This document shows positions 961-51,425 of a stretch of 64,000 nt of DNA, piece by piece (position 1 is the stretch's first letter; each line of letters opens with the position of its first letter). The stretch is from Eretmocerus hayati (lineage: Eukaryota > Arthropoda > Insecta > Hymenoptera > Aphelinidae): the NCBI GenBank assembly GCA_029851415.1, contig CM056743.1:78138186-78202185 (forward strand). Direction: 5' to 3'. Below the pieces are notes generated by a model, which saw only the letters and a program-made list of their open reading frames with translations, was not told the DNA's origin and searched no databases. Made by a program: the position numbers and the translations under genes.

Positions 961-1176
961 TGTCAGGAACCCATATAGGTTCCCAACTAGCCCTACATAT
1001 TACTATAAATACCCTACACGCTCGCCACTGGATAAATATATCCCATGAGGCCACCTGCATCCAACGCACGATCATAAGAAAGATGCAACCCCAATCCACC
1101 AATCATGATGCAGGGACGACCCTCAGCTGATCCAATCCTAGACACGGATCGAGGATGACGCCCGCCCACGAGAGGG

Positions 1177-1182
1177 TATAAA
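1177..1182 (+). promoter_or_regulatory. TATA box in the X 5' LTR
   Basis: TATAAA lies in GAGGGTATAAATGGGGCC and is conserved in the 3' LTR copy. It is the likely core promoter element for the X genomic RNA. Confidence 0.6.
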
Positions 1183-1383
1183 TGGGGCCTCAAAAGCTCC
1201 GTCTAGTGCTTCTAGACGCGCACTCCAACGCAACACCACGCACCCTCCACAGGTGCTTCTAGAAACCCAGTCGAGCTCGTTTCACGATACAGCCATTTTG
1301 AGCCGAGCTTCTTGGGGAACTCGTCTCGTAGAATCATTTACGCATTGTACAGTCTCTCTCTCTCCTTATTATACTTTGGATTT

Positions 1384-1389
1384 AATAAA
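1384..1389 (+). terminator. Polyadenylation signal in the X LTR
   Basis: AATAAA follows the TATA box by about 200 bp within the LTR and is conserved in the 3' LTR (TCTAATAAACC). This gives the usual U3-R-U5 order. Confidence 0.5.
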
Positions 1390-1515
1390 CCTAGCTTACA
1401 TCAAACCCAGCATTTATTAATACCACCGCCCATTTTCCACAAACCAATCTGGTTAGTCCTCGGACTTACCAGGCGCAGTACCAAAGAACCCACTTCGGGG
1501 AATCCCGTCACAAAC

Positions 1516-1533
1516 TGGTGCTAGGTGTGGGGT
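1516..1533 (+). other. Putative primer-binding site of X
   Basis: TGGTGCTAGGTGTGGGG begins within a few bases of the LTR end. A TGG at this position is what a tRNA 3' CCA end would pair with. I could not assign the tRNA. The 3' LTR has no such sequence after it, which confirms which LTR is the 5' one. Confidence 0.5.
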
Positions 1534-2090
1534 ACTACTGTGGAAATTTGGAGAACAATTTGGGTTTCTGCTGTGGAAAATCTAGGAAACAAGCTGGCTT
1601 TTGCTGTCAAAAATTTAAGAAACAAACTACTGCAGGAATTTTGAGAATTTTCGCGTCAACCGCATCGCGCCCCCATTTTGGAGCTTCCCATCAGATACAA
1701 CGATTGTCAGGAAGGAAGACAAGGGAGGATGTCCATTGGAATTGCTTTTCTCCTCATCTACGCAGTGTCTGGGTGAGAAAATTTTTATTATCCCTATACA
1801 CGTCCTTCGCGGGGAGAGTCGCGAGGCACAGACTCATTCCAAATTCATAGAAGTCAAACGAAAATACTTCCCATCTGAATATTTAAATCTCATCCTCTCT
1901 GAACATCACCTGACAATCACTTTTTCCTTAAAATTATCTGAAACAGTTCGACTGAACAAACAATCTCAACCATAGACGGGGTCGAAGTTTGTAGAAATTT
2001 TTCCCCATTTTCTAGACTTTGTATTCTTGTGTTACTCGTAAAAAGCTAGGTCCTCTGAAATTGTTCAAGTTAACGCCTTGATTTGAGAAG
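1534..2090 (+). other. 5' leader of X
   Basis: No convincing coding sequence is visible between the primer-binding-like site and the gag start. The stretch is probably untranslated leader and packaging region. Confidence 0.5.
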
Positions 2091-4358
2091 ATGGCGAAGA
2101 ACCGTCAAAATTTAAATAGCCTCAAGTCTCTTCACAGTATCACCGAAGGTACTGTTGACCACCGGATCGCTAATATTCGAGAAAATGCTGAGGGAAGCGA
2201 GTCGACATCACCCTCTCTGCGAACACAAGAACAATCTGCAATGAAAGAAGCTTTTGACTCGGGAAGTCCTCTCGTTTATGACAATAATGACGCTTTGACT
2301 GAACATTGTGCCGCATCAACCGAATATGCTATGGCCAAAGAATACTCGAGGCCTCCCGTTGACCAAAATAGTAGATCACAAGTTCAGTTTGGTGAAAGTT
2401 CCAGCCACCGGCTTCTTAGCCTGGACGCTGAAGTGCAAAACAATTCCAGCCGCCGGCTTCCGAAAAGCCTGGACGCTGATGGACAAAATATTTCCGGCCA
2501 CCGGCTCTCGAATAGCCTGGACGCCGAGACGCGGAAACATACCAGCCACCGGCTACCACGCAGCCTGGACGCTGAGTCGCATTATGTATGTTATAGTATA
2601 AGTGAACGAGACCAAATCGAATGAAGTAGAAAAAATGAGAAGCCACGAAGACGGGGTAGAGAAGAATCGTCGCTTGAATCGTCCAATCGACGCTCACGCG
2701 GACCAAAGCCATCTGACAATTTGAAGAACACTGAGCATGCAAATATTGACGAGACAGATCACGATAAGCCAGATCGCTATAGAAATATTCTCGACGGCAC
2801 GAGCATTCCCAAACAGGATAGATTTAGAGACAATAGTGATTCTTCCGATAGAATGAGGAGCCATAATCCATTGCAACGCGAACTCAAATATTCGGGAGAA
2901 AGTATGGAAAATCGGTCTGATGGCAGGGGCTACGATTCTGACTCTCACGAAGAAGCTCGACAGTTTAGACCCAAAAATTTACCAACACATGCTTGTGCCG
3001 ATGATTGGCCTAATTCAAAACATCATCTGACACTTAAACAAGCCCTCAGCCGAATTCCCTCTTATGATGGAAGCCCAGATAAGCTAGAACAGTGAGACTC
3101 TCAAACGTATTGTGGATAAATATGGTCCCGATTCGAAACCAGTGGTGATGAGCGCACTATCAGGGGAATTTATAGGACACGCAGCTGATAATATTCCTCT
3201 TCGCGATTGAGTCAATATACTTCCGTAAGCGAATTATTAACCGACATGTTGAAGCAATACAGCTCACTAGCGGGAGAGGACAAAATCTTAGCAGAGCTGA
3301 GAGTAATACATCAAAATCCGAAAGAAAGCGTAGGAGATTATGGTTTACGAGTACAAACTCTCCTTGATCGTCTCTTGATAGCGTATCATTCAGATACCAA
3401 ACTCAAACATCGGGATCGTGACACATACAAGCAAAACGCAAATGAAGAAGCTCTAAGACAATTTATGTTTGAACTATTGAGCTCTCTCGGCGATGAAGTC
3501 CGATTGAAGAATCCTTCGAGCTTACGAAAGGCAATTCATAAAGCAATAGATGTGACGCGGGGTATGAATTCTTCAAATCATTCCGAAGGAGACAGCGACC
3601 AATTCGAGAATACCATCGATGCTGATATAGCGCAAAAAATGGAGAAGATGGGAGGAACAGAGTCTATTCCTAAGAAATCTACGGCTATCAAATCGTCACA
3701 GACTTCGAATGCATGTAGTCATTGTCGGAAACTAGAACATTTTGTGGAAAATTGTTCAAAACATGTTCAAACCTCGAAATTTTGTTTTTACTGCCGTAGA
3801 CGTGGGCATGATTTGAATGAATGCCGCTCTCTGAAATACTTACTCAGAGCCGGATTGATTTCGAAAAATCGAATGAAACAACCGAACAGAGTAGAAATTG
3901 TTCCGAAACGTTACGGCACTGAACCCCGAGAATATCATCCTCCGCGACGCAGTCGGGCAGGTTCAATAAGGAATGAAAGCCGAGGCCATGCTAGAAATAT
4001 TCATGATGAAAGTACATATTACAGAGATGAAAATCATGAAGTCAGCAGCGTGCATGACTATACGAAGTCTGGACAGAGTATTGAGAGTAACCGTGATTAC
4101 GAAAGGGATTCAATAAGTGATGAACCACATGAATATGGTTCTGGGGCAGAATGCGAGAGTCCGGACAAATACTTGAATAATGATCATCGAGATTTATTTG
4201 AAACCGACGACGGTCGTGAACCCTCTTTGACAAATCAGGGGCAGCGAAATCCGCGAGAGGATGGTGGACACCAAAATGAATCGATAAGTGAGTCAACCAA
4301 ATTTTCAGATTCTAATGACGTTCAATATCAGTCTCCGGGGCCCAGCTCCAGTAATTAA
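2091..4358 (+). pseudogene. gag: gag of element X (broken), with two CCHC zinc knuckles
   Basis: Gag is the structural polyprotein that coats the genomic RNA. The start is the ATG at 2091 (MAKNRQNLNS). The N-terminal third is polar and charged and carries a 16-residue repeat. A helical capsid-like region spans roughly 3090-3600 (ELLTDMLKQYSSLAGE, then a VGDYGLRVQTLLDRLL stretch). Two nucleocapsid knuckles follow: a C-x2-C-x4-H-x4-C motif around CSHCRKLEHFVENC (about 3712-3755) and CFYCRRRGHDLNEC (about 3783-3825). The tail is long, acidic and Ser-rich. Breaks seen are an in-frame TGA at 2622, a TGA at 3093 next to a frame change, and a second frame change and stop near 3205. After the stop at 4356-4358 no protease or RT follows, which is unusual for a gypsy-type element. 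Confidence 0.75.
2401..2585 (+). repeat. 48-bp minisatellite within X gag
   Basis: There are four tandem copies of a 48-bp unit starting CCAGCCACCGGCTT, each encoding a variant of SHRLPKSLDAE plus five residues. The frame is kept across all copies, so the repeat expanded within a coding context. Confidence 0.75.
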
Positions 4359-5648
4359 TTGAATGAACCAAATCTGCCACGACGAAATATTTGGATTCCC
4401 TGGTTTTTTGTCCTCAAAGCAGATCATGAAGAGTACGGATGAGTAGGAGGAAAAGATGGTGTTGAGAAATCATTCAAAGCTTATTCTTAATACGAGATAT
4501 GCGTTGCGAATTATGGAAGAAAATATCTAGGAAAATCAAGGATAATCATAGAGCAATTCAACGCAAGGCAGCGCATCACTTGGAACCAAATTAGAAATGA
4601 TAGGATAATCGTATGTTACTGATGATTTGCAATTTAGGAGTGCTCTTCATTTTGTAATCGAGTATTGTAACAGAAACTGCGAGACAAATATTAGAGAGCC
4701 AAATGAGTCAATATCACTGTGTCCGAGAACCAAATGCAAAATCTACCGTGAAACTACCAGAGCCCTTATTTTTAATACAAAAAAAAAACGATTTTCTATT
4801 GTTACTAACGAAAGACAGAATGATAACTGAGATAGATGCCCGATGGTTTCAATTAGCAGGATCTGTGAAGCAATATTGAAAGAGTTATAATATATTGGTT
4901 GGGTTACAGCCCGTACTTGGGTGAATTATTCATGGCATTATGAGGAGCTATCAACGCGGGGAGTATTGACTGATACGAATTCAATCCACTCGTAGTGATA
5001 AGTAAATGATATGCTGAAAACGAGGGAGTTTTTCATAGGCGAAACTTACAAGAAAGAAACGTTATGATTTTAGGATTCATATCGATGGGGATTATTCCTG
5101 AGGCTAGAAATGCGCCCTCAGAGCATCGGTTATTTTCATGCTTGGTAACACAATGATGATGATTTTTGGGGATACTTACATAGTTAATCTGTGATTGAAA
5201 GAACGATCTATCTAGGATTCTACAGGTTCTGTTGGGGGGAAATTATTGGCCACGGTGTGCCCTTGGGAAATTGTTTGATTACATGGTTGGATACTGCAGG
5301 GAAATGATGATTTTCAGGAGTATTGACATAAGCAACCTATAATTGAGAATCGCTTATGGTTTCAGAGTTCATGTTAGGGGGGATCATCCATGGCGCCAGA
5401 GTACGCTCTCAGGGGATTGATCATTTAGGTAGATGTACAGGAGGGGAAATGATGATTTTTCATACATCCGGAAACCTCCGATCCTAATCGGCAGCGACAT
5501 TTCCGTTGATGTAAAATACGAAATGTGATAGATTAGGTAGAAAGCATGAAGCTACGGAATACATAATGTGATGGGAATTCATTGCTTGAAAATATTGACG
5601 GGATGAGCTCGTATTGACGAAAAATTGTCAAAGTGGTCCTGGCTAGAA
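4359..5648. repeat. Non-coding X interior with degenerate ~143-bp repeats
   Basis: No gene is seen. From about 4915 to 5470 a unit is repeated loosely. G-runs followed by ATTATTC or ATCATCC plus a TGG or GCG context recur near 4919, 5092, 5235 and 5377, and GGGGATACTTACAT- or GGAGTATTGACAT-like stretches recur between them. The last two spacings are about 143 bp. Confidence 0.35.
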
Positions 5649-5650
5649 TT

Positions 5651-5758
5651 TGTAGGGGAAAGGGGGGATAAGCTTATATATGTAGGAAAATGGGGGATGG
5701 TCTTATATTTGTAGGGAAATGGGGGATGAGCTTATATTTATAGGGGAATGGGATATAT
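5651..5758. repeat. 30-bp tandem repeat
   Basis: About 3.5 copies of a unit of the form TGTAGGGGAAATGGGGGATG plus CTTATATT start at 5651, 5681, 5710 and about 5740. No coding role is visible. Confidence 0.7.
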
Positions 5759-6663
5759 GTCCGCTTTGTTGAAGAAGTATAACGCGAGTTTATTTGAGGG
5801 GAATGACAGAATTGAATCGCATACGGGGTACAGTTTCTGACTGATACGGGGAAATGAGTTATTTTTTCGAGCTCAAGATTGAAAAAAAAACGCAATTAGA
5901 GTCCAGAGAGGGACATTATGGAGGAATTCAAACGTGAAAAATATCAACCGGGCGTCAGTCTCACAGAATGAGTACATCGGCAACAAATATTTTAGCTAAC
6001 AATGGGGGGATTATTCGACCACAGTCGATTTTCTTGGATTTAAGAAAACTGTCCGCATTTCACGAGACTCCACAGTTTATCTAATAAACGAGAGTAGCTG
6101 ATAGCATTGGGGAGACAAACACTAGGGGGATTTGAATTCACCAAAATTTGGACGAGAAAGTTGGAATTGACAATCGATTTGGACGAGTTGATAGACCACC
6201 GAAGTCCGTGAAGCAAGCTGGAAGATATTTGAATCTTGTAGAAGTGAATCAAAATGCGGCTTGGGTGGATTTGAGTGCCACTAGGGTCCGCGAAGCAACA
6301 AACGTAAATGGAAGTTGAAGAATCTAGATATTCTATGATATTGAATCTCGCAAATCCTGCTAGGGCTAGAAATGAAAAATTTGTTTTCGCATTCCAACTT
6401 GTGAGGTTGAATTCTGAGAGAGCAATCAAAATCAGATTGTATCATTCATTTATGTGTGATAGGTTCAAGAGGATGAAAGTTGCGTGCAGAATAGTTGTCA
6501 CTGAGTTCAAAATGAAAATTAAGCTCGTTCAGTTGAATGCGGCATCAAGAATGTATCTCTCAAACGAAATAAGGAAAAATTTGAATTATTAACCGCAAAT
6601 AATATAATTTTATTTTTTTCTTCATAGGAAAGCATTTGGTTTGGACATAGTGATTCATCATAT
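5759..6663. other. Non-coding stretch of X
   Basis: Only short open frames without family signatures were seen on either strand. Confidence 0.5.
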
Positions 6664-7036
6664 AATTGTTTGAATTACTGATAATACAGGCTCATAGATG
6701 AAATTGACTTCTCTGAGGCTTTTATCTGAATCCGTTGATTTTGAGGAATAGCGATGCGCGTTTCAAGTGAATTAATGAATCATTGAAATTGTTTGAATTA
6801 CTGATGATACAGGCTCATAGATGAAATTGACTTCTCTGAGGCTTTTATCTGAATCCGTTGAGTTTGAGGAATAGCGATGCGCGTTTCAAGTGAATTAATG
6901 AATCATCGAAATTATTTGAATTACTGATGATACAGGCTCATAGATGAAATTGACTCCTCTGAGGCTTTTATCTGAATCCGTTGATTTTGAGGAATAGCGA
7001 TGCGCGTTTCAAGTGAATTAATGAATCATCGAAATA
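6664..7036. repeat. Three tandem copies of a 123-bp unit
   Basis: The segment containing GAATTACTGATGATACAGG and GAATAGCGATGCGCGTTTC occurs three times. Its GAATTA marker falls at 6672, 6795 and 6918, exactly 123 bp apart. The copies differ at only a few bases, so the duplication is recent compared with the decay around it. The period is divisible by three, but no long frame spans it. Confidence 0.85.
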
Positions 7037-8400
7037 TTTCAAAAAGTCGTAGCTCTTCGTTGAGACGAATGGAGGAGGATCCATTGAGACAAAAAAAAAT
7101 ATTCGGGCGTATCCTTTTTTTCCACATTTCACGAAGTCAATGCCATTTGATTCATTTATTCCCGAGTAAACCATGATATTTTTCGAATATTTTCTGTAAC
7201 ATAAGGATGAAGACAAGTCACAGAATTACCCACATCAAATTGTCAAGAAAAATGATACTCAATCTTATCGAGTCAGATCGACTCATGAGGAGTTGATGTG
7301 CCAGCGAAGAAATGGACGTGAGATGCAAGCAGTTAATTTTCTCTTCGTGAATGATAAGATAAAATACTTACTCGTCTGGTTTTTGTTATGAGCAATAATA
7401 ATTTGGACGCATCAGTTACGTCAAAGTTGCAGGGATGTTTTCATACGAACAAAATGGTTCGATAGAGCAACAGAAAATATGTCGGTGAATGGTCCATGTC
7501 CCTCTCCCGAATTCCTGATATTCTAATGGTCTGGAAAATCTGCTTTACATTCGATTTCCTCAGCTCTGTAAGTCGTTAATGGGTCAGCTCATTGAGATGC
7601 CTCAGGTATCGAGTTGAACTCGGAAGCGGTGACTCAAGTCAGTCGCTTGCATCTTTGAGATGCATGAAACACAATATAGCGTGACTATATTAGTGCAGAT
7701 GGTGTCCCAAACAGTGCTCATGAAAGGGTGTGACTGGAGTATCTGGTGGAGTGAATCATCTCGCTTACAAGAATCAAATCGGTGTTTCTCAATACGACTT
7801 GGTCATGGGATTTGCCACAATGGAAATTGAAAACGCCAGGTGATCTTACTGCATACCGAAAGACGATTGCGGAAAATGAACCTGCTGAAGATGGGATAAA
7901 TCGACAGTAAAACAGAGCTAACAATGAACTAATCTGACTCCTAAATATTCCACATAACTCAACCTTGAGGGAAAATGGATTCTTTTCACTCACTATTCCT
8001 CTGGTTGTCACGCGAGGTGAAAACCCGAGAATTATGTTGATATAAGATGTTATGTAGAAAAAACAATAATCGAAAAATCAAACTTTGATGTGACTACTTC
8101 GCAAAGCAGCTGAAAAAGCTAGCTCGATGGTGTACACGAATTTCGATTGTTCTACCAATCACCATATTCAAGTACTCTAGAATAGCAAAAGGAGCACATC
8201 GCAAATAGCTGAAGCTATTTTTTTATCCAGCAAAACCAATCCAAAATTCAAAATAAGAAAAAAAAAGATCAAACGTACAAAAACAAACGATACTGTGAGC
8301 AAATGCTGATCTACTTTATATAAATGAAAATCGTTGTGAATGGAAATCATCAAATGACCAACCACCAGCAACTCAATGATCTCATACAATGAAGATTTAT
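7037..8400. other. Non-coding stretch of X
   Basis: The region is AT-rich with short spurious frames only. I see no gene, RNA or repeat that I can support. Confidence 0.5.
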
Positions 8401-8404
8401 CTAC

Positions 8405-8475
8405 CTATCTATATCTATATACCCTGAGGCGCCAGTACAGTTCAGTATCAGTCCGTAAGCATCGAGTGGCGTATA
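8405..8475 (+). promoter_or_regulatory. Possible core promoter
   Basis: TATCTATATCTATATACC is followed about 30 bp later by TTCAGTATCAGTCC, which contains TCAGT matches to the insect initiator consensus. A more GC-rich 400-bp stretch follows. No downstream open frame was recognised, so this rests on spacing and motifs alone. Confidence 0.25.
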
Positions 8476-11303
8476 TAGTCATCTATAAGCAGTAGCTCAG
8501 CATCATGGGGTATACAGCGGGCGGGCTGTATGTATCAAGCACGGCAATAGATACAACGCGTATCCCTATAGCAGTGACTCGGCAATGGGTCGGTCCATAG
8601 CAGCACACGTACACTGAGTGGAGGCACCGCTTATTGTCCTTGGTGCGTCTGTGTGAGTCGCATGTTAAAGCATAGGAAGTGCGCGCAAAGAGCGGTCGAC
8701 GCTATCCGAGATGAGTGAATCTCTTTCACACGCACAAGCCACTTTTGTCCCGGGTGCTTCTGTGTGCGTTGAACGCAGCCAGTATAGGCCTGTACATCGC
8801 ATGCGACATGCCAATGAGTCTACTGAGACAAATGTCTAATGAAAGAGCAATAGTTTTGGGGTAACACGGGTGAGCTGTTCTCTGCTCATTATCTCTGATT
8901 TAAACTCTCTTCGACCTTGAAGTTACAAATTTCCTTTATGTGATGCAGCAATAATGACATTAACATTCTCATGACATTTCTAACCTCAATCTTTCAAGTG
9001 CCTGTTAGAAATTCAAACTGAATAAAAATGAGCAATTTCTTCTATCATGCACTCTTTCATTCAAATTGGACATTGAAAATATTAACCACATCAAAAATCA
9101 TAGGTCAAAACTTATAACCATCATCACATAAGCAGTAACAGCTATTGTCAAAACTCTGAAATGAATATGTATTTTGTGACAAAAATTAGCCCAAACTGCC
9201 CCTCATCAAGTACAAGTCCCACATCTTATCAGAATTGTTAGTCGCTCAAAATATTTTTTTTTCTTTCTCTCCACACTACCTTGCTCACCAATCATTAACT
9301 TGTGTCCCATGACCACATTATGAATGGCAATCCCTCACTCATGCTGAGCATCTTAATTAACAAACCAACTATGCATCAAAATAGACAATCAAAAGAGTCG
9401 AGTGGTTGTGAATGAATTTTTCAGCTAAACCCAATGAATACTGAGTAATTTCACAATAGCCATGCTGTACTGGTCAGCAAAAATTGATAAAACTCAAATT
9501 GCAACATTGTAAAATTCAACAGCTACAACTATGCACAAAACAAGCTCTTGATCTAAGAAACTGGACAAGGAGTTCAGATCTACTATCCCATCCATCACAA
9601 ACTGCAGTAAAACTCACCAAATGCATGAGCGGGTATAAGATTCTTTGATCTCACACTTCTTTTCCAGAACACCATAAGCTTACAGTTACACTAAAGTTGA
9701 TTTAGTATGGAAAATGGGATTCAATTGTCAAAATTACAAACCCTGTACCGCACAAAAAGTAATCTTACTCATGCTGATTTACTTACCTACAATTTCAGCG
9801 TACACCAGCATCATACTCCAAAGTTGAAATAGCACATCTTGGGGCAACAGCAAGACTCAGCTTTCTTCAGCATTCTCACTCACAAACAAATTCATTAATC
9901 AATTTTGAATTACAATTACAGCTGAATCACTCTTGTTAAATTGTTCAAGTGAAGTATAGTTTTCTAGCAACAACAACATTACACACATCTAAATTGATGT
10001 ATGTATGCTTGTCAAGAGTCAAAGATGAACTTTGTCTGCTTACTCTAAGACGCATTGAACACGCTATAGTACAGGCAGAGATCATCATCTGATGTACTTG
10101 ACTTCCCCTTCCTGTACTTACTGTCATGATCTTTCCTCTCTCTCACACACATTGGAAAAGGGAAAGCCTTCTGCTCAGTGTCGAACGTCAATGCGGCTTT
10201 CATGTCATTGATGCCTAAGCAAAGCCTGAGTGGAGAATCCAAATCTCTTCTGACTGATGGTTGATATTTCAATAGCAAGAATATGAATGTAGCTTTCATG
10301 CTTTGATGAGATTTTCCAGGTGAATACTCATGGGTTTTTATTTTTAAATATTACATCAAAAATAATGAAATGAGTTCAACTCATGGAATGGTCATCTTGG
10401 AAAGTTTTTGCACTGCCCAGTTTAAAACATCAACATTGTGGCTAATTCATTGTATAGACTCTCTCATGATAGAAAATTTCAGCCGGCTCTTTTGTTTTGC
10501 TCACAAACCACAATGAACAGTCTATCAGTAAGCAATTGGGCTCATGTAAAGAGCTATAGCTTCATAAAAGACTCTTATAGCCATCAAGTCTATTCTCATT
10601 CTCAACATGAATTCTTATACCTATAGTTCATGAATAAAACTGAAATCCATTAATCAGTGTTTACCCAAAGGGGGATACCCATGTATAGATGTTGAACAAC
10701 AGCCTTCACACAATTAGGATGGTGAATACAGTATTTCAGAAAATACTTACCCACAGTAATGAGGATTCCCAATTTTTCATTCACCAAAACCTATCACACC
10801 TATAGGATATTGCTCTAACAAAGCAAAATCTTTCAAAGTCATCTGAACTATAGTAATGTGGGAATAGGCCTTTGAATAACATCAGTTTATGTTTGATAAA
10901 CTACCCTGCTAGTACTCATTAGGTCTCAGCTTCATTGGTAACCGAATGAAAAATATTGTCATTCTTATAACTGGACCCCAATAGTAGCTTTGAAGTATAC
11001 CTACTCCACTCAAATTCTCACTCACGCTCTGGTAAATATTCAAACCTTCTGCCATGAAGGGCTTAAACATGAGAATCAGCATTCTTGGTAAATGCCGGGT
11101 GAGACCTTCAATGGAATGGATCACTTTCTCACATCATGCATAGCATCAGTCACAACATTCCACTAATGCATGGGTCAAACTATAAGACCACAGATTCATG
11201 ATTGGAAAAGAATCACAAAATGTCACTATAAAACCCGAGCAATGCCCACTCAATGTTTCAAGACAGTATGATTCTTATGACCCTGTATGATATGAATCAG
11301 ATA
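8476..11303. other. Non-coding stretch of X
   Basis: A GC-richer segment (about 8480-8850) is followed by AT-rich sequence. No coding region, structured RNA or mobile element end was recognised. Confidence 0.5.
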
Positions 11304-11305
11304 TA

Positions 11306-14300
11306 GGGGAGAGTGGGGTAAAATTGGACGGGGGCAAAATTGGATAAGCGCCACGGCGGCTTTGTAAACTAATCCCCGCCGGTAGTGTAGATACTCATTA
11401 TTATCACCGACAACGGTTTTCTAAACGTTTGCGCCACTCGCCGTTGACTATCGGAGCAGTTTTGGCGTAGGTGTCAGTTTTAGGGGTTGCTCGCGGTTTA
11501 TTTTTCAAATGCAAAAGTTTACACTACGTCTTCAGAAGTAGATGGGCTTCATCGGCGTTCGAGGAGCAAAAACTACATTGAAAAACGAAGATTTTCAGCC
11601 GTCGTGGGTCAAAATCCATCCAGTTGGAGGTTTGTAATCTCAACTTTACGAAAGAAACGGCCGGGGGTATTTTTTGACGAATTGAGCGGGGCGAATTTGG
11701 ACGAAGGAATATCATACAATAACCGCGTATAGAGCACTTTCTTGATTTCCTCATCCTCTCTCATGTCCTACAGGGTTATCATGGTTCGAACTTATGAAAA
11801 GAAAAGCAACAAGTGTGAGTACGACACGGAGCATATGTACAAAGCTGTGCAACAAATAATACTGTGTGACAGAAAACTCAGTGATGTTGCTGGAGAGTAT
11901 GAAATCAAAAGGTCAACACTGGCTTATAATGTCGCAAAGTGCAGAGATGTAGATGTTAGTTTATATGAGAATATTTCACATCTATTTTCAAATATGAAAC
12001 TAATCTTGAGTACAGAGTTGGAAGAAGAACTCGCCTCACACATTTTGAGGAGCGCAGAAATGTACATTGGATTGACTCCTACAGATATTCGAGTCTTGGC
12101 ATATAAATTAGCTGTTGCAAACAAAATAGATGTTCCTCAACAGTGGGATGATGCTCATTCAGCTGGGCGAGACTGGTTTGGTTCATTCATGAAGCGACAC
12201 AGTAAACTATCAATACGAGTTCCTGAAGCCACCAGTATTGCTAGAGTTTCCGCTTTCAATCAGCAGACTGTTGCGACATTCCATAATAAGTATGCAGAAG
12301 CTAGAGCCAGATTTGATATTGCTGGATCAGAGATTCATAATATGGAGAAACAGGAGCTAAAACTTGCCACAAGCCAGTTAAAATTGTTGCGCCCAAAGGA
12401 GTTGAACAAGTTGGGTCAATTGTTAGTGGAGAAAGAGGTAAGTGTTGGAGAAGAAATTATTCTTCAATGTTTATTGTTGTCTCTTAAAATATTTTCTATT
12501 TAAATTAGGTGAGCTTGTCACATTGGCTGCGACAGTGTCTGCTACAGGTCAAGCTATACCACCTTTCTTCATCTTTTCAAGGGTGAATTACTGTGAAAAA
12601 ACTATGCTTGTCGGAGCCCCAGAAGGTAGTGTGGGAGTCGCACACCCAAGTGGATATATGACCAAGGAATATTTTCCTTCGTACTTAAGGCACTTTGTAC
12701 AACATACTGGATGCTCGGTGCGAGATCCTCACCTCCTCATCTTGGACAACCATGCATCTCACACAGCCATTGAGTGTGTGAAGTTTGCCAAAGAGAATGG
12801 CATATGTTGACTTTGCCTCCACACACCTCTAGCAAACTCCAGCCACTGGATAGATGTGTTTTTGGACCTTTGAAGTCCGCTCTGAACAAAGTTATGAATA
12901 CTTGGATTATAAATAATCCAAGGAAGACCATGAGGATTCATGATGTAACAGGTTTTTTTGAGAAAGTTTATGACGACGTTTTTACTCAAAAAAACATCAC
13001 TGCTGGATTCAAAGCAAGTGGTTTACATCCTTTCAACCCATCAATTTTCAAGACATCAGATTTTGCACCCAGCCTTACCACTAATAGGCAAAATCCTATC
13101 GAAGAGATTGAAGAAATTGATAGCGAAGAATGCGCTGCTCCACATCTTTCCTCTGGAAATTTGATTTTACCTGCTGAAATTCGACCTATTCGCATCCCTA
13201 GCCCAGCCCGAGAGAATACGTCGAATCGACGCAAGCAACGGAGTACAATCCTCACTGATACCCCTGAAATGGAAGAGATGGAAGAATTGGAGAGAGAAAA
13301 GCGAGTCAAGAACTTGAAGAAAACATCAAAGGTAGAAAAAAAATCTGCGAGCAAAGGAAAGAATGTGAAACAGTCTGCTTTGATATTGGTGAGTGACGAA
13401 GACTTAGGGCCAAACTCATCGGTAGACAGTGATCCTATCTTCATTCAAGACACTGAGAAAACAAGGAAAATTACTTGTGATTCTTTAGATGATGATCTGA
13501 TTCCAGTTAAGAGGCTGAAAAATGATAAAAATCACAAAAAGCGGATACATAAGCAAGAGCAATTTTGAAGAGATATTGAATTCGCAGGGCCGAGTACATC
13601 GAGTCTTAGTCACATCAATTCAAAACAACAAACCAAGAAATCACGAAAATCCGTTTGTAATTCTCAAGATGTTGATGTGATTTTAGTTAAGGGACTTGGA
13701 AAAAATGAATCACAGAAAATCGATTAATTGAATCAAGAACGAATCTCCAAGGATATTGAATCTGTAGATCTAGCTTCATCGTGTGATGAACTAATATTCC
13801 AACAACCAGCTACGAAGTTGAAGAAAATTACCATGGATACTCAAAATGATGATTTGATTCCAATTGAAAAAATCAAAAAGGAAATTTATCAAGAAAATAG
13901 AGAGAAACTCAATGAAAAGAAAGTATTCACGATTAAAATTAAGTTGGATAAAAATATCGTGGAAGAAAGAATTGTGATAAAACCGAGGAGAATTTATGAA
14001 CCTCTTACAGAAAGTAAAATTCAAGAGAATGAAAAGAGAATAATTCGACTGAACAAGAAGTACTTTGATTAGCAAGATTAAGAGTATTTCGTAAATGTGA
14101 ATATTGGCATTATTCTATATGAAAACATATTTTATGAAGCGTTTCTGCAGTTATTGTTTCTTGTATATTTTATTTTTCAAGTTAATGTGTCATATTTTGG
14201 AGTTTAGATGAGAAGAATCAAAGAAGAAGTCTACCTCATGTTCCAAAGATTAGCAAATGATTGTCAAAATGAGTTATATGCATTCAACGGTGAATTAAAA

Positions 14301-14581: not shown

Positions 14582-14583
14582 TA

Positions 14584-34561: not shown

Positions 34562-34585
34562 CGTTGGTTTGGGGATTTTGCGTTT

Positions 34586-40823: not shown

Positions 40824-43800
40824 ATCTTTTTTTATCAGATCATATAATGCATGCGTAAATATAATGTTTGAGTGTGATGAGTGAGCAATGGAGAGACTTT
40901 GTAACGAAAGAGTATCAATGTGTGATTATATGGCAACTCTTGGATTTCTTTCCTCCATGATTCACATTTTTTCAGCCTCACCCTGAGACCACCAACTGGA
41001 AATTTTTTTTATTACGCCCTTGATTACATGGTGACAATTGACAGGATTTTGGGATTCAAGGTCATAATTATTGGATTTTATCACTCATGAATGTCACAAG
41101 ATGGTTGGTTAAGAACTATGATATAGGACAATAACAGAAAGCCTGTGATGATCAATGAGTATCAGCGAGCTCAAAGTCAATGAGTACTGCATTTCATTGA
41201 ATTCTTCAAGAATGTTGTTTGAAGGATGTGGTATATTTTTTGCTTCATTGGGTTTCCTAAACAACACCAACGAAACCGAGGGATCAACTTTTGGGATCTC
41301 TGAATATTAATGATTCATCATGACGTAAGATGAGGATTGTTTGTTGATCAACTTTTCTTTGTTTAATTGAATATAACTTCCATTTAAATTTTGCTGAAAA
41401 ACAGTTCAACATTTCAAGTAGAGACTTGTATATGAACATCTGAATCTCAAGAAATAGACAATCATTGTGCCACAAGTCCAGTGAGTTTAGAGTTAATCTT
41501 TTTCTGGACACTAAGATACCCAATGTTTCCGTGAAACTTGGTAGTTGAGGGAAAATTAGTTGAAATTGAATTCTGAAGTCGTCTTTTTCTTCGACTTCAG
41601 AACCAGTTTGTGTTCCAAATCAAACTTAGTGAATTTTGTCAGATTTCATCAAATATTGGAATCAACCAGGAGATGAAAGTCATGCAATGATGTCTCAAAA
41701 TTTGATACCAAGTCTGAATTAGGAGCAATCAGTTCTCTACTGAATTGGGCAAGAGATTCAAATTTCATCAAATCAAATTCCACCACCCAAGCACTGACTC
41801 CTATTTGATCTCATTGATTATTTTAAATTCAATTTTTCATTCTACAAGACTATCATGTCTTGGTAAAATCAGTTTCAATGTTAGAACTATTCAATTTCAT
41901 TAATTTGCTCTGGGCTCCTCATATTTAGTGTCATTGATAACGTGAATTTGAACGATTTCAGATTAAAAAAATTTCAGTTTTATACTAATTTGCATGTTTG
42001 GTTTCATCAGCAAAAGTTGACTATGAAAGAAAATCTGATTGAACATGAATCTGATCCATGCATTTTTTGATATGCATTACTTTTAGGTTATTTCAAATTC
42101 TTTTTGAACTTCACAGTCTTATATCAATTTTGCCCTGTCACTATGATGAGTTTCGAATCAGTAAGTACTTTTCACAATGAATTCTTTAATCCTAATAATG
42201 TTATGGACTCGTGTACCCAAAAATTCGGCTGAATCGGTGGAATATATCTTATTACGAGGACTCTGATTCTAATACCGTAAGATGTACAGATCATAGAATT
42301 TACTTTCACAATTGAATGAGCAATCACCAAAGCGATGTTCGAGTAACTTCGATGAGACAGGTGCGTTCCGTTTATGATCAGAAGCTACATTATCTTAGAA
42401 CTGAGTTCGTATTAGCACCATTCCGAGAAAGGATTGATCAATATTTTATTGTTCGTGAATGGAACACTGAATGATCTGAAGATATCGGAAATGTTGGATA
42501 GTTTTCTTGAAAATTGGGGCATTGGTCGATCTTTTTAGATTCCACAGTTGTAGATTCCCTAATTGGACCCTGTTAATATGATGACTTTATAATCGGGCTC
42601 TTTCAAAAGTAGTTTGTTGAGTCATGATCTCAAAAAAAGTATGTTTATTCAATCATCAATATCTATCGGTTCGTTAAATCAAGTGTAAGATGGAAGTATT
42701 CCAAATTTAGTTCTATCAAGGATCCAATAGGTCAATTTGAATGAAATGGTGTATTACATTCGACAGTAGAAGATTTTGATGTGGACATCGGTGTATTCGA
42801 TCCATTACATCATCTGATCTGATGAGAATGAATCCAAAGGCTGATATGATGCATATTCAATCTCTAGAAAGGTATCTGTGTATGTTTTGGGAACGAAAAA
42901 CGGAAAGCAATTTTGATTGAAACCGTGTGAGATTTATTTTTATTACCCGGATCACAATTATATGAGTCGTTTTTAAATCGAACCTCTTTGAACCAGATTG
43001 AAATGAAATATCGAACTGCTTGCATCACAGCCGATTAAAATTTAGATCATGAACAAATAAATCTCAGAAACACTTAATTCCTTTATAAAACGTAAAATAG
43101 AGTATGTACACCGTTACTTCAGAATCTCCTCATACTTCGATTTCTCAGTTGTATCTATGATTTATGGATTTCAATACAAAGTGCTGTGATTGATTTAAAT
43201 ACGGAATGGGGGAAAAGATTGATCTTCATCTGAAGATTGGAATTCATAGTGATAACGAAATTTTATTATAGAGTGGAGTTGATATATCTGGCAATCTGGT
43301 CGATGAAAACTCGCAACCATGGATGAGAGACATCACTCGGAGAAAAACGTTTGACTGATATTGAAGCGTGTGAGTTAGAATTTGGGGTGACTTTCGGGTA
43401 TCGACATTTTTGTCAGTATATGGCTTCATTGGACATTTGTAAGTAATCGAATTCCAGTCAAGATCTTGATCTCAATCATGCATCAGGCAAAAGATTTCAG
43501 AAAATGGATCGGTTTCACCCCGAAGTACATTTTTCTGGATACTAAATTAGGATACAATAATTTTTTTGCGTTACCTAGAATCGCTCCATTTTTGAGATAC
43601 ACAATTATTTACTTATCAAGCCTGGTACCTACTTTTGCGAAAAATCGACTCAGAAACCTCCATTGATCGCAGGGATCGTTGTATATACTGGAGCACTTTG
43701 ATGCTGATGATCGAATACAAGGAGTTAACGTTAAGAAGTGGCTACTGAGGCGAGATGAACTGAATTTTTGCTATTGTATACACAGAACGATGTTCGACAA

Positions 43801-45461
43801 AATCCTTCTTCCCGGAGATGGTATTTTTTTTCTCGCTGAAAAATGTTAGTAGTTCTCTATTGAGATACTCAACACGCTCGGATTCGTTCCATGTAAGAAT
43901 TTCATTCGAGAGTGGTGCTCGAACTTTTTGTTCTCTCCAAACAATACTTGGCACCCGAGTCTTTTAGAGGGAAATTCGCATTTTTCGGTGATGATCATTT
44001 CATGATACACGATGAACCGAAAAGTAAAAAATTGAATATCTCAAGAATAGGGCGTCTCTATGCAAAACAAAAAAACTAAGGATATTCTAACTTTGCACTC
44101 ATAATCATATACTTTGGGATAAAATCAATCCATTCTTCGAAATATGGCGCCTGCCTGATTTTTATTGATTCGGTCTGGTCTTGAGTCTTTAAAATTGTGA
44201 AAATTTCATTAGCTCAAGGATTTCGCTCTCAGTCTAAAAAAATCCGAATTTATTTTATGGTCGTCGGGCTACAATTTAGCACATCACGGCCCGGCGACCA
44301 TAAAAAATCATATGCACCTCGTGTTGCAATCGAATACATAATCTACTAATCAAATTTCGTAGTTGGGATCAACTATGTCTAGGATCAAGTTTTGTAATGT
44401 TTGGATAAGATTCTGGAATTCCCGTTGTGTTCTGATAGTGTGAACAGTATATCAACGAATATTTTTCGACATTTTCTTCATTTCTGACGACGCTCAAGTG
44501 ATGGAGTATATTATTCTATCTCATTCATTAATGCATTTGAGGAGCTGACGCAATATATTTTGATATAAAAAATATCAAATATATCTTATCTATCTCAAGG
44601 AGCGAAATTTCCCGGATCCTAGGATCCGGGTTCGGGAATATTCCTGTCAGATCATCAGTCTTTCGAATCAATTTTACTCTCTAAAATATCCAGGGATCTG
44701 GAACCGCAGGAGACCCAGTAGGAAATTGGAGTGATTTTTTCATCTTGAGATATTTTACTATGTGTCAAGATATTCTGGTGATTGCTGATTCGACATTCCT
44801 GTTCCGCAAGAATACGGAAATCGCGGTATTTCAAAAAATTGGAAACATGCCATTATCAGGGGAAACAGCATTTATAACAACACTGCCAAGAAAAAATAGC
44901 GTTGGAGGCAAATATCATTTTATCATTGAATGAATCCATGAGGATGTAAAATATTCCAAATTTTCTATATTTTTTTCTCCTAACTGCTTATCGAAGTCTC
45001 CATCTTTTGAGTTTGCAACAGTGAAATTCTTCAACTGTTTCCAGAATCACACGAATCTTACACTATCCAGATACAAGCATAATATTAACATAGAATTCGT
45101 CAATAGAATGTCCCCAAACGTTGCGTATCAGTTTTTCGCCAGAAACGAAACTCTCCAAGAATACTTGCAAGTTGATGTTGAAAGAGGGATGACTGTATCG
45201 AGGATTTCTAAAAATATTGCGACCCCATACCATGGTGATGCAAACAGAATCGAAAGAATTTAGGTAGTATGAGAGCTTCAAATATTGCTCAAAATGATGC
45301 AGGCATCCTTGGAAGGACAGTGCAAGTGAAGATGTAAGAATAGGTCTACTATTGGATATATAATTGCAATTGCGATGACATGGAACTATTCAATGGAGAA
45401 CCTGTAGACGTTTTAGTTCAGAACAAATCGAAAATCGTAAGCTTTTCATCGCAATACGTCT
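40824..45461. other. Long AT-rich non-coding interior of X
   Basis: No coding region, RNA gene or element end was recognised in 4.6 kb on either strand. The only structure seen is a hairpin near 44252-44308. Confidence 0.5.
44252..44308. repeat. Hairpin
   Basis: ATTTTATGGTCGTCGGGC at 44252-44269 pairs with the near-complement at 44289-44308 around a 19-base loop. Function unknown. Confidence 0.6.
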
Positions 45462-47450
45462 GATATCCTACTGGAAATCCTAACCCTTGGACAAAAATTC
45501 CTAACTTGAAATCCGCGCGCGTAGCGCGCATTTCTCGTTCTAGTCCGGGCTTGATTATGGAAGAACTAGAGCAACTGCACACATCTCGAGTAGTGTGGAA
45601 AATTGTGAACGAAGTCAACCTTCAGCCATATCTTTCTCAAGGAATGAATCTATACGATACTTGGAATGTGATATAACAAAATTGCGATGAACGGGGTGGA
45701 GAATGTAAGAGCAAGGATCAGATTGACAGATTGGGAGAACGAATTCGTGACACACAAAAGAATGCGAATAGACTGCTAGAACTGCTACAAGGAACAGAGC
45801 CAGATATGCCCCATATGCGAGTCGAGAGGGCACTTTTAAACATCATGGGAAAATTTTACAAATATTTATACGGACAACTGGATGAGGATAACGAAATTGA
45901 ATTGAAAGAGTTGATACGATCAGCCTCTAATGACACAAGTCAGCTAGCGGGTCTTTTAGCCAATCAATCAGGAATCATTTATAACCAGTTTGGTCTTCAA
46001 CAAGATAAAATTGACAAACTAAATTCTGTCATACCTAAGCTGAAACTCGAAAATGAAAAATCAAGCGACCGTCTTGATTTCTCTATAGTAATGGAAATTC
46101 TCATAGAAAGCGTGCTACAATACGAAATTACAACGGAACAGCTCACAGAATCTATTCTCTTTGGTGTGCAAGGTATATTACACCCACGATTCGTCCCACC
46201 TTCGATCCTGAAAAATACAAGGAATACAGTGATGGGGACTGTCACTGACGCCAAGTTTCCAGAAATTGGAGAGAATGAGCCTCTTCTGGAGCTCTTAAAG
46301 ATTGCGGATCTGTCTATTATGTTTAGCTACCCAAAACTATTATACTAAGTACGACTACCACTACTCGATCGTATGGATTCCGATCTCTACAAGGCTTTAC
46401 CTGTACCGGTACGACAACTTAATACTTCAGTTTTCGCTTACATTTGGCCAGACGCCGTATATACTGCAATCGATGTGGAGGCTGGAGTTTATGTGCCTTC
46501 CAGCGCAGAAGCTCTTAGCTTGTGTAAGAGATTGAAGAAAACATACATTTGCGAGGGTTCTACTCCGGTACACAAAATTAGTAATACGTCACCTTGCGAA
46601 GTCAAATTTGTTGCGCAAAGATTTATAAAAGATCTGTCTAATTGTGAAATGGAATTAGCTAGAATACAAGAAACCTTCTGAGCAAAATTGGAAAGAGAGA
46701 ACACTTGGGTATACTCCACGAATAGGGCAGACACAATATTTGAATCTTGCGGGAAACGGGTAGACAAGGAAGTAAATATAAAAGGTACTGGAATAGTTCA
46801 CTTACCTTCAGGTTGCTCAGCTCGCACAGAGAATGTAAAACTCACAGATGCTGTCATCTCGGAAAATTACAGTAACCTCGGAAGTATTAGTCTTCAATGA
46901 CAGAACCCTAGATTTGTCACACTTACTGAACAACGAACTCAAACGAATGTCTGACGATCCAATCAAAAGCGCGGATGTAACTTCGAGTATACAGCTACAT
47001 GGAGACGCGCCGCTCAAACCATTAGAGAAAGGAGACGATCTGAAAGATATCATAAACAAAGCTCGGAGCATGAGCCAGCTCAAGTTCATTTCAAAAAGAT
47101 TCGAAAGCCTCCAAAATTCATTAAGTATCATGGAATATTCATTTCTATTTGCCATCATGGCATTTATCTTCGCAGCAAGAGTCTGTTGCCTGGGGGGTGC
47201 AATTGTTTCACTGTTCGAAGACTTGTTTCAGGTTTTATCCCACAACGTAGAAGACAGGAGCAAGTATTGGAATATGGGAGGAATGATGTCATTACCTTAT
47301 ACAATCGAACGACGAGTTCAACCTCATGTTACAGAAAATTCCACAAACATTATTATTGAGGTTACTGCCATAGGCAAACCAGAAAATCAACCAACAATGT
47401 CATCCCAAGATTTGGAAGGAAACATGGAAATCCCGGGGACATTTGTATGA
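45462..47450 (+). pseudogene. env: env of element X (broken), F-like
   Basis: A surface-subunit-like segment (VVWKIVNEVNLQPYL) is followed by a minimal cleavage site RVER and the conserved block ALLNIMGKFYKYLYGQLDEDN, the signature of insect F-like env proteins. The middle includes LYKALPVPVRQL and a Cys-containing SU/TM region. A transmembrane segment (FLFAIMAFIFAARVCCL) lies near 47150. Breaks are a frame change near 45675, a TAA at 46346-46348, a TGA at 46679-46681 and a frame change near 46850-46900. It lies in X orientation, about 3.5 kb before the 3' LTR, where env belongs. No integrase precedes it. It is clearly different in sequence from the env at 25792-27855. Confidence 0.75.
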
Positions 47451-48500
47451 AGGATGTAATTCGCAGTGTTTGGAAAATTTCCACAAATCATTCAGCAGAG
47501 TGATGGAATATAGAGCGCCAGGACCATAAAGTTCTTTCATGAATCAACCTGTATTGATAGGGTAGTATTATACTAGTCATTCATTATCTTAACCACGATT
47601 TGTCAATTTTCCATTATCACACTGTAACTATTATCTAAGGTACAGTAATCTCAATAGTTCATATGGAAACGAGCTACTTTTTCTGGTCATACCAAAGAGA
47701 ACCAAATTCATTCTAAATTATTTGCGTTAATGATAAAATCTTAAGCTCAATCCAGTATCGTACAATTTTGGGTAGTTTTGGTTTTCTCTCTTCTTTTTTT
47801 TTTTTTTTTTTTTTTTCATACTCACTCATCCAAAGATTATTCAAGAACATGATTAGGATTGTTGACCGCTCGGGCAATCTCCAACCTAGCATATCATAAT
47901 TCAAACTCCCAAAAACTGTATAAAAAATTTGCAAAAAACAAAATTAGCTCAAACTACTCTTAACTGTTAGACCTTAGATTGTATGCCGTAGTTAACTCAG
48001 CTTATCATAATGCAATTCACAATTTTTTACAGAATTCACACATATCAAAAAAAGAGCTCAACTTCGATATTAAAACTTATATTGTATACCGTAGACAATC
48101 TAGTTCATCATAATATCAAGCTCCGACGGAGTTCAGATTCTTCCGTTAAGTGTAAGCAACCTAGAATTAAGTCATAGTATCAGTATTCCTAACATTTGCC
48201 TTGGGCTACCTAGCTAATAGTACATCAAACGGAAGTTGATTCTCTTTTTCTAGTAAAATACAGCACGTTTCCACCCTTTAGTATTAAAACTCACACCGTC
48301 TCTTACTGCTTCACAAATAACCTAGCTTATTATGAAACAAAGAGGAAATTTTCTATTTCAAAAAAAAAAAGGTCACATTTTCAATAGTTGAACGCTGGAA
48401 TCAGCACATCTCTCCTTATTGTTGAGATTTTAATTCCTAGAGTATTTGAAGTTTATAATTATTGTAACCAAAATAGCATCGACATCATTTGAAAATTCAC
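47451..48500. other. Non-coding stretch with a T-run
   Basis: There is a run of about 24 T (about 47793-47816). No other feature. Confidence 0.5.
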
Positions 48501-50541
48501 CTACTATCGGTTTAAAAATGATTGACACCTAGAGAATTTCTGCTATCCTGGCTCCAAAAAAAGTCGCTAATTTTTTTAACTGGGATAACGTCGAAGCACA
48601 TCTAGTCGCGGCCATGATAAAATTCTTTTGAAGTCGATCGGATGACAACTGCGGCTGTAGCTGTTATCAGAATGTAAAAAAACGCGGGTATAAGGCCAAT
48701 TTCAGAGGTAGCTCGACTTTGGGATGCTACAGCTCTGCCAAAAAAAATTCTGGGGCGCTGCAAAAAATGTAGGTGATAGATATTTGGTTCCCCAATAGCG
48801 TCCAACAACAATCAGCCAAAAAAATTAATAACTTTTGGAGATAATCCAGTTATTGTTATCTCGGGATCTATTGAGGTTGAAGATTTGATTCAAAAACAGA
48901 AAAATCATAAAAAAATTCTGGATGTCAAATACAAAAATGCAATATGAGATTTTAAATAAACAAACGCGTGTCAAGGTCGCAAAGTTGAAAAAAATTAAAG
49001 TTTGCGCCTTTTGTGAGGCTTTTATTGTCCTTTACAGCCGGGGCCCGTAAAATCGTCGATGGGCGAGACTACCTGACCGCGGACCATAAAAGTCGTAAAT
49101 TTGCGGTCTCGGAGTCAATTAGGGTACCATCAGTCTGCTTCGGCTGCAATAATGAAGCTGAATTTTCAACAAAGAGAGCAATAAAACTATTTCGAACGCG
49201 ATTTGGGCCTTGCGTTACTATTACAAATATCGCCGATTCATCGATGAAGCATTGTCAATGATGAGTCGAACAGTATATCAATGAGGCGTGTGTGCAGGTG
49301 TCTTTCTCTCTCTCAGAGTTTCGCGATATCTGCATGTAAGTATTCTTTGGCGGATCCTTTAAATGATTGATAATATACAGTCAATACTTCATCCACATGA
49401 TTCCGATGGTGAAACAGTTGGATATCATCCGTATTGATAAGATGAAAATCAACAGTTGAATGATTTTACTATTATCTTGTTCGATCGTTGATTGAAATTA
49501 TTGATTGTGCGAAACGCGCAATAACACGACATACATTCATTTCTATGATGCTATAAATGATCGGTCGAACAAGATGATGGTAAAATCATTCAGCTGTCGA
49601 TTGTCATCTTATCAATACGGATGATATCCAACTGTTTCACATCGGAATCACGTGGATAAAGTATTGATTGTATATTATCAATCATTTAAAGGATCCGCCA
49701 AAGAATACTTACATGCAGATATCGCGAAACTCTGAGAGAGAGAAAGACACCTGCACTCACGCGTCATTGATATACTGTTCGACTCATCATTGACAATGCT
49801 TCATCGATGAATCGGCGATATTTGTAACGCAAGGCCCAAATCACGTTCGAAATAGTTTTATCGCTCTCTTTGTTGAAAATTCAGCTTCATTATTGCAGCC
49901 GAAGCAGACTGATGGTACCCTAATTGACTCCGAGACCGCAAATTTACGACTTTTATGGTCCGCGGTCAGGTAGTCTCGCCCATCGACGATTTTACGGGCC
50001 CCGGCTGTAAAGGACAATAAAAGCCTCACAAAAGGCGCAAACTTTAATTTTTTTCAACTTTGCGACCTTGCCACGCGTTTGTTTATTTAAAATCTCATAT
50101 TGCATTTTTGTATTTGACATCCAGAATTTTTTTATGATTTTTCTGTTTTTGAATCAAATCTTCAACCTCAATAGATCCCGAGATAACAATAACTGGATTA
50201 TCTCCAAAAGTTATTAATTTTTTTGGCTGATTGTTGTTGGACGCTATTGGGGAACCAAATATCTATCACCTACATTTTTTGCAGCGCCCCAGAATTTTTT
50301 TTGGCAGAGCTGTAGCATCCCAAAGTCGAGCTACCTCTGAAATTGGCCTTATACCCGCGTTTTTTTACATTCTGATAACAGCTACAGCCGCAGTTGTCAT
50401 CCGATCGACTTCAAAAGAATTTTATCATGGCCGCGACTAGATGTGCTTCGACGTTATCCCAGTTGAAAAAATCAGCGACTTTTTTTGGAGCCAGGATAGC
50501 AGAAATTCTCTAGGTGTCAATCATTTTTAAACCGATAGTAG
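48501..50541. mobile_element. 2.04-kb near-perfect palindrome (foldback element)
   Basis: Arms of about 980 bp (48501-49489 and 49561-50541) are almost identical inverted copies around a unique centre of about 71 bases. The outer ends read CTACTATCGGTTTAAAAATG. Each arm carries the same short frames, including a 69-codon one (48602-48811 minus and 50231-50440 plus), but no known domain. High identity between arms suggests youth or gene conversion. No target duplication was identified. Confidence 0.85.
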
Positions 50542-50908
50542 TTAACAATATGTTCCTCATCCTATCTTATGAATAACTCAAACTCTTTCAAATATGTACC
50601 AAGTTCAATCATTGTGATGTTATTGTAGATTCGCTAGACCTATTTTTATCATTAATAATCTCCTAGCTTTAGTCAGTATATTTTCTATCAATTATCGAGA
50701 CGAGGCTCATAATATTACTCAGCTAAAGCATACTCAATACCTTCATCAGTTCATGCCATTTAGTTTGTCAACTACAAGTAGGAATTTTCATGTATAATAT
50801 TGATTAGAATACGCGGAAAATGGGAATTGTATGGAAAAACAAAAAAGAATTTTTTTTTTACGATATTCTTGGGATTGCTCAGGAGAGCAATAAATGCGGC
50901 TATGGACG
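50542..50908. other. X sequence before its 3' LTR
   Basis: No gene. The expected polypurine tract directly before the LTR is not visible (the flank is AATGCGGCTATGGACG). A purine run occurs only at about 50832-50848. Confidence 0.5.
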
Positions 50909-51425
50909 TGTCAGGAAGTCATATAGGGTTCCAACTAGCCCTACATATTACTATAAATACCCTAAACGCTCGCCACTGGATAAATATATCCCATGAGGCC
51001 ACCTGCATCTGCACCTGCATCCGACGCACGATCATAAGGAAGATGCAACCCCAATCCACCAATCATGATGCAGGGACGACCCTCAGCTGATCCAGTCCTA
51101 GACACGGGTCGAGGATGACGCCCGCCCACGAGAGGGTATAAATGGGGCCTCAAAAGCTCCGTCCAGTGCTTCTAGACGCGCACTCCAACGCGACACCACG
51201 CACGCTCCACAGGTGCTTCTAGAAACCCAGTCGAGCTCGTTTCACGATACAGCCATATTGAGCCGAGCTTCTTCAGCCCTTGGGGAACTCGTCTCGTAGA
51301 ATCATTTACGCATTTTACAGTCTCTCTCTCTCATTATTATACTTTGGATCTAATAAACCTAGCTTACAGTCCTCGGACTTACCAGGCGCAGTACCAAAGA
51401 ACCCACTTCGGGGTATCCCGTCACA
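50909..51425 (+). repeat. 3' LTR of element X
   Basis: The 517-bp copy of the repeat at 961-1512, same orientation, starts TGTCAGGAAG and ends GTCACA. The TATA box and AATAAA are both conserved. It has a small duplication (GCATCTGCACCTGCATC) not in the other copy and lacks about 50 bp present there. Confidence 0.88.

Follow-up and report, generated by a model that had tools for sequence, protein, structure and literature searches.

Errantiviruses, the insect env-F endogenous retroviruses, are described as combining a Ty3/Gypsy-type pol and a Baculo_F-type env with 4-bp target site duplications (TSDs) and a spliced env RNA (PMC12992720), and long terminal repeat (LTR) elements of more than 30 kb with extra coding sequence and Env homology are described in planarians as Burro, giant Gypsy elements (PMC6431247). 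Here we analyzed a window of 64 kb from the genome of Eretmocerus hayati, in which an LTR-bounded element, X, occupies positions 961-51425. With good confidence, X is a pol-less member, interrupted by nested elements, of a giant env-bearing Ty3/Gypsy-type family, whose relatives of 38-40 kb carry gag, pol, and env in sense and, in antisense, open frames whose products would be a KDM4-like JmjC protein, a pair of SIAH-type RING proteins, and an acidic protein, a set that we predict acts against host silencing. By the features tested, X itself is likely an env-F LTR element, and the antisense genes of its relatives probably specify an enzyme resembling JmjC demethylases and proteins resembling ubiquitin ligases.

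This family differs from errantiviruses as presented in PMC12992720 in its length of 38-40 kb and in a conserved antisense gene set between pol and env. In Burro, as portrayed in PMC6431247, Env lies in frame between gag and pol within one large polyprotein, whereas here env is separate and spliced and the extra genes are antisense. X resembles the LARDs outlined in the same source in having no pol, such that it would need enzymes in trans, but it retains gag, env, and an antisense gene. The DA and Xiao composite LTR elements also hold tens of kilobases of gene-containing DNA; their core, however, is reported to be flanked by two modified HERV-E copies (PMC2700803), while X is one provirus with one LTR pair. 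Antisense coding within a retroelement is likewise known from HBZ-type genes, spliced antisense transcripts being a feature of deltaretroviruses, but the account in PMC8622228 is of one small gene, in contrast to the several large genes with JmjC and RING domains known here from sequence. Finally, fungal transposons with TET/JBP dioxygenases are also mobile elements with an enzyme that could lift silencing; those of PMC12730594 are DNA transposons associated with DNA demethylation, whereas here JmjC is carried by an LTR element. Word matching in open-licence papers found no LTR element with antisense JmjC or RING genes, which is weak evidence of absence.

A single insertion with giant relatives

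A sequence-only reading of the window had placed 50.5 kb between one pair of LTRs, with CCCG at both outer flanks, and the LTR-pair comparison agrees, giving the following boundaries:

957..960, no strand: left copy of the TSD CCCG
961..1512, plus strand: 5' LTR of X, 552 bp
50909..51425, plus strand: 3' LTR of X, 517 bp
51426..51429, no strand: right copy of the TSD CCCG

The LTRs have TG..CA ends (TGTCAGGA...CCGTCACA) and differ by 17 substitutions in 497 aligned columns and by 3 indels (Kimura two-parameter [K2P] distance, 0.035). One frame of the surrounding element, Y, is open on either side of X (33 and 73 codons, the flanks being read separately and not joined), and X with its TSD measures 50,469 bp, a multiple of three, as expected from the earlier remark that a Y linker frame reads through once the insert is ignored. 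TSD, LTR ends, and open Y frame thus agree on a single insertion. In addition, large arrays of a 26-bp satellite lie in both orientations at 51845-54473, inside or adjoining Y.

In the insect's own genome (692 Mb in 17 contigs; the window is C3:78138186-78202185), the family LTR had at least 41 matches (40 of 70 candidates scored), including several same-strand pairs. Five of these were compared with X:

C3:77291232-77329691: B, 38,460 bp; LTRs with 1 difference in 583; TSD GTAG
C2:62372136-62411269: C, 39,134 bp; LTRs with 6 differences in 581; TSD CAAG
C2:74954068-75014546: A, 60,479 bp with nested inserts; LTRs with 12 differences in 583; flanks GAAC/GAGC
C4:60514641-60519577: D, 4.9 kb; LTRs with 15 differences in 570; TSD CTAT
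C1:110342019-110347022: E, 5.0 kb; LTRs with 1 difference in 583; TSD CTAA

B and C, at 38-39 kb, carry gag-pol-env and are collinear with X at 8153-11305, 14582-15097, 16254-19641, 34899-39089, 45544-48503, and from 50539 to the LTR, with identities of 82-96% (88-96% in most pieces); the gaps in these alignments are the five nested inserts of X. The sense frames of B comprise gag (974 codons), pol (1805 and 181 codons), and env (654 codons), env being a separate frame downstream of pol and not in frame between gag and pol, and long antisense frames are located between pol and env. Pfam recognized RVT_1, RNase H, integrase (rve), and Baculo_F (1e-41) in B, and no family in its gag at a threshold of 0.01. 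The pol frame of B (L016:4586-10000) has a linker of about 900 codons between RNase H, which ends at 731, and the integrase zinc domain, which starts at 1635. C has the same genes, with stops in gag (1) and pol (2). A has no pol of its own, and the only pol within it belongs to a W-like LTR element that also has a gag and is nested in the pol-less stretch (C2:75005138-75010144).

A second family is represented by F2 (C1:96233964-96274149), an element of 40,186 bp with 640-bp LTRs showing 0 differences and a TSD of GTGA. Between the two families, gag, pol, and env are 46%, 58-77%, and 60% identical, respectively, and the env of F2 matches Baculo_F (1.6e-37). The pol that the sequence-only reading had suggested seeking in full-length relatives of this gag/env lineage was found in B, C, and F2: a Ty3/Gypsy-type pol (reverse transcriptase, RNase H, and integrase) was recognized by Pfam in B and by similarity in C and F2, but not in X. 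A 4-bp TSD accompanies paired LTRs in X, B, C, D, E, and F2 and is imperfect in A.

The short copies, D and E, both read TATCTGG joined directly to AACTCC. In X, TCTGG is followed by GTGAG at 1773 and TTATTGCAG by AACTCC at 39030, so that the junction in D and E is an exact GT-AG leader-to-env junction. Since both copies combine this junction with paired LTRs and TSDs, a GT-AG-spliced leader-env RNA was reverse-transcribed and integrated. The LTRs of E lie at a K2P distance of 0.005-0.010 from those of B. Had the parent been a giant element, the splice would have taken gag, pol, and the antisense genes out of that one transcript. Production of env from spliced RNA is described as usual for insect env-F elements (PMC12992720).

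These copies bear on whether the giant elements arose by retrotransposition at all, as 38-60 kb far exceeds usual retroelement sizes and the copies could instead be DNA-level duplications of one composite locus, by segmental duplication as discussed for DA and Xiao. We consider this improbable: the copies begin and stop at LTRs, 4-bp TSDs surround X, B, C, and F2, the LTRs within a copy are near-identical (B) or identical (F2), and the spliced LTR copies attest an RNA route for the lineage.

The antisense genes

The antisense gene of X spans approximately 38.2 to 19.2 kb, with the nested element Z located between exon C and the last exon:

36998..38243, minus strand: exon A, acidic protein with an AT-hook-like stretch (period-3, shared signals, eight loci)
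36632..36997, minus strand: open frame B, with a CxxC cluster and a conserved GTAAGT donor (three-copy comparison)
35567..36094, minus strand: open frame holding exon C, donor GTAAGTATT (92% amino acid identity to element B)
19171..19466, minus strand: last exon D, with acceptor TTAACAG, stop, and AATAAA directly after (three-copy comparison)

Several features of the gene are the same in elements X, B, and C: the start codon, the donors that follow frame B (GTATGTAAGT) and exon C (GTAAGTATT), the acceptor TTAACAG, and the stop codon together with AATAAA. A coding role for the antisense exons is suggested by the period-3 of exon A (up to 10.8) and by open frames and splice signals that three copies share, in keeping with the multi-exon antisense gene noted earlier. 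Near 37.0 kb, X, B, and C change reading frame in passing from frame A to frame B; F2 has the two parts in a single frame. An antisense frame of 560 codons in F2 aligns with frame B of X (36% over 123 amino acids, 4.8e-20), and the cysteine-rich end has the same position in both. A GTAAGT at 36671 was rejected as the donor of exon B, as it reads GGAAGT in elements B and C. The open frame of element B continues through the site of Z, so Z may interrupt either an intron or an exon of this gene. Single-sequence folding of exon C gave no lead (mean predicted local distance difference test score, pLDDT, 42.8).

In element B, antisense Pfam matches comprise JmjC (8.4e-13) and two Sina_RING domains (2e-7 and 3.8e-12); the JmjC frame, in a KDM4-like JmjC/zinc-finger gene, has 556 codons and KDM4D as its nearest solved chain, and the nearest for the RING frames is SIAH1. 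F2 presents related antisense genes in the same order as B: RING (44% over 358 amino acids), RING (48% over 227), JmjC (27% over 251), and the acidic gene. The JmjC positions H, E, N, K, and H are kept in both B and F2; we take these H-x-E...H, N, and K residues, from KDM4A, to be the Fe(II) and 2-oxoglutarate positions. The RING, zinc-finger, and JmjC proteins of B had no tblastn match in the window or in A.

DNA of exon A was found at eight loci of the genome (10 rows, all 9 candidates being scored). At seven of them a family LTR is no more than 5 kb away; in X, because of its nested inserts, the distance is 12.6 kb. None of the eight lies away from a family LTR. An intron-bearing antisense gene, strand skews like those of chromosomal genes, and a missing pol might be expected had a normal provirus of 6-10 kb later received a large chromosomal piece with a host gene, the alternative raised by the sequence-only reading. 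This history is very improbable, however, unless the collinear copies are assembly errors: B and C, which have other TSDs, contain this region between their LTRs with its order unchanged, all eight exon A loci are near a family LTR, and F2 has related antisense genes. Nor are the other LTR pairs ordinary 6-10 kb elements with the interior unlinked elsewhere, B, C, and F2 being 38-40 kb. Of the non-autonomous giant retroelement with cargo that the same reading had favored, the giant size, missing pol, and antisense gene stand; the antisense gene is instead a standing part of the family and not private cargo.

Pairing of antisense JmjC genes with sense genes extends beyond these copies. Gag matched 40 loci (44 rows, less 4 second pieces) and the JmjC piece of B matched 133 (139 rows, less 6). 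Together these gave eight opposite-strand and no same-strand pairs with JmjC 8-45 kb downstream of gag, five of the eight in the family of X, compared with a mean of 0.13 and a maximum of 3 in 2000 draws of random placement. Matches to the env of B numbered at least 69 rows (68 loci; 68 of 1270 candidates scored). A JmjC gene lies 3-45 kb upstream of env on the opposite strand at 28 of the 68 scored loci and on the same strand at 1, with one pair downstream; random placement gave 0.30, with a maximum of 5 in 2000. The 28 loci span 100% to 44% env identity. At places predicted from the spacing of B, three of eight stretches (L026, L029, and L034) had no matching DNA, L040 had no second LTR, and nothing matched in L033. 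Seven loci have the JmjC piece of B at 93% identity or above. A further 130 or so JmjC-like places have 25-50% identity; many of these contain open frames of 400-800 codons, and groups with equal scores occur on several contigs. JmjC genes seem to have been amplified by mobile elements in this genome.

Between B and C, the ratio of nonsynonymous to synonymous substitution rates (dN/dS) is 0.33 for gag, 0.39 for pol, and 0.12 for env (each p<1e-4), and 0.26 for antisense exon D (p=0.006). Pooled antisense frames (8 of 14, six small or overlapping frames being excluded) give 0.55 (p=2.5e-4). This pooled constraint is modest; a stronger sign is that frames have stayed open and active-site residues have persisted while the families diverged to 27-48% identity.

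Sense genes, nested inserts, and mosaic origin of X

The sense strand of X and the stretches between its genes are composed as follows:

1513..2090, plus strand: leader with presumed primer-binding site; splice donor after 1772, TCTGG followed by GTGAG (sequence; junction in D and E)
2091..4358, plus strand: gag in three pieces, stop-broken, two CCHC-like motifs (40% to B gag over 600 amino acids)
4359..8152, plus strand: pol-less stretch without coding signal (short-frame Pfam scan, periodicity)
8153..19150, no strand: stretch common to B and C outside nested inserts, with coding signal only in nested elements (periodicity, copy comparison)
39030..39084, plus strand: start of env exon after acceptor TTATTGCAG (junction in D and E)
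45542..47450, plus strand: remainder of env, broken (Baculo_F match at 45.7-46.3 kb)
47451..50908, plus strand: 3' region, ending in a family-conserved stretch where a purine tract is expected (copy comparison)

As the sequence-only reading had it, gag is at the 5' end and env at the 3' end, both on the LTR strand, and pol is missing. Both genes carry stops and shifts, and the env piece matches Baculo_F at 4.3e-5, just below the Pfam cut-off. Searches by tblastn with the three other pols of the window and with that of B found only a frameshifted remnant of the pol linker (56 codons, 5899-6067), and Pfam found no pol domain in 134 plus-strand and 114 minus-strand short frames of X. Gag and env show strong triplet periodicity, which is at noise level at 4.36-11.3 kb and about 38.4-45.4 kb.

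Directly before the 3' LTR of X (50863-50908), and correspondingly in B, C, D, E, and A, there is no purine tract; its position is taken by a mixed but conserved stretch that ends in GCGGCTATGGACG. The priming of plus-strand DNA thus becomes a question. A rearrangement was rejected as the explanation, because B, C, D, and E have this stretch in front of their 3' LTR and A has nearly the same one.

X consists of about 22.3 kb of its own DNA and about 28.2 kb in five nested inserts, for each of which B shows the uninterrupted site. The earlier count was of four inserts, leaving about 29 kb, with 39085-45541 seemingly counted as interior.

11306..14581, plus strand: pogo-like transposon with terminal inverted repeats (TIRs) and TA duplication; absent from B
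15098..16253, no strand: foldback element; absent from B
19642..34898, minus strand: LTR element Z, env-bearing, TSD ACCA/TGGT; absent from B
39085..45541, no strand: insert of unrecognised kind within the env exon, with a 6-bp direct repeat AGTCCG; absent from B
48504..50538, no strand: foldback element with arms 99% complementary; absent from B

The insert at 39085-45541 holds 6.5 kb without recognised coding, and parts of 41-44 kb recur elsewhere at 67-88% identity. Z has a truncated 5' LTR and leader, carries a nested TIR element at 22477-25074, and has extra sense frames after its env (20552-22217) with a basic stretch and cysteine clusters. Comparing the ages of Z and X was uninformative (9/322 and 17/497 differences, p=0.69). 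A search for repeats common to both ends of the interior of X gave no lead, nor did Rfam, protein-database, viral-contig, and phage-record searches.

X at 1976-8172 is about 96% identical to A, and at 8153-11305 it is 94% identical to B and 76-85% to A. Because X is closest to A in its 5' part and to B in most of its 3' part, template switching is a likely source of X. A point against one clean switch is that A is again 95-96% identical to X at 14582-15097 and 16254-16736; on these comparisons X is a mosaic of a pol-less and a pol-bearing lineage.

Proposed function of the antisense cassette

We propose that an LTR-to-LTR sense RNA serves as the genome that is reverse-transcribed and that the RNA behind D and E came from a giant parent. 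The antisense genes would be transcribed from separate promoters, of which one probably lies immediately before exon A, and could keep their introns because the sense RNA does not splice them. From its domains and active-site residues, the JmjC protein would likely strip silencing marks, and the RING proteins would probably tag host factors to be degraded. For its own movement, the pol-less X would have used the enzymes of relatives such as B. More broadly, we tentatively suggest, at somewhat under even confidence, an old, diverse clade of ambisense giant endogenous retroviruses with sense gag-pol-env and, in antisense, a cassette of intron-bearing anti-silencing genes (for a KDM4-like JmjC demethylase, SIAH-like RING ligases, and an acidic zinc protein), which would open their own chromatin and remove host silencing factors, the antisense JmjC being kept from 100% to 44% env identity in one genome.

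Several observations weigh against the overall interpretation of X and its family. The JmjC frame of C has a 7-bp insertion relative to B, and frame B of X has one stop relative to the frame of element B. A has neither a matching antisense gene nor a perfect TSD (GAAC/GAGC), and D and E reveal neither which parent made them nor its length. An opposite-strand JmjC is absent at 40 of the 68 env loci among the matches listed. Taken singly, antisense frames are weakly constrained between B and C (exon A, 0.58, p=0.087; RING527, 0.61, p=0.13; RING356, 0.57, p=0.28), and JmjC279 has 9 nonsynonymous changes to 1 synonymous. Antisense transcription and splicing are predicted from open frames and splice signals. 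Alternatively, the antisense genes may belong to the element but serve another role, such as regulating its own transcription or the host ubiquitin system. Antisense regulators are known in deltaretroviruses, according to PMC8622228, and the anti-silencing role of the acidic and RING proteins is a predicted one; the JmjC active-site positions kept in both families, however, fit a chromatin-type enzyme better than a structural regulator. We regard such a role as possible, at roughly one chance in three.

In sum, these elements extend the gene content of LTR elements well past gag-pol-env, to retroelements of about 40 kb whose genes lie on both strands and in which antisense placement can preserve introns. 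Given copies of 38-40 kb with near-identical LTRs in one genome, the size limit of reverse-transcribed genomes becomes directly testable. Should host silencing be the target of the JmjC and RING proteins, these would constitute a retroelement-encoded counter-defence against chromatin-based silencing.

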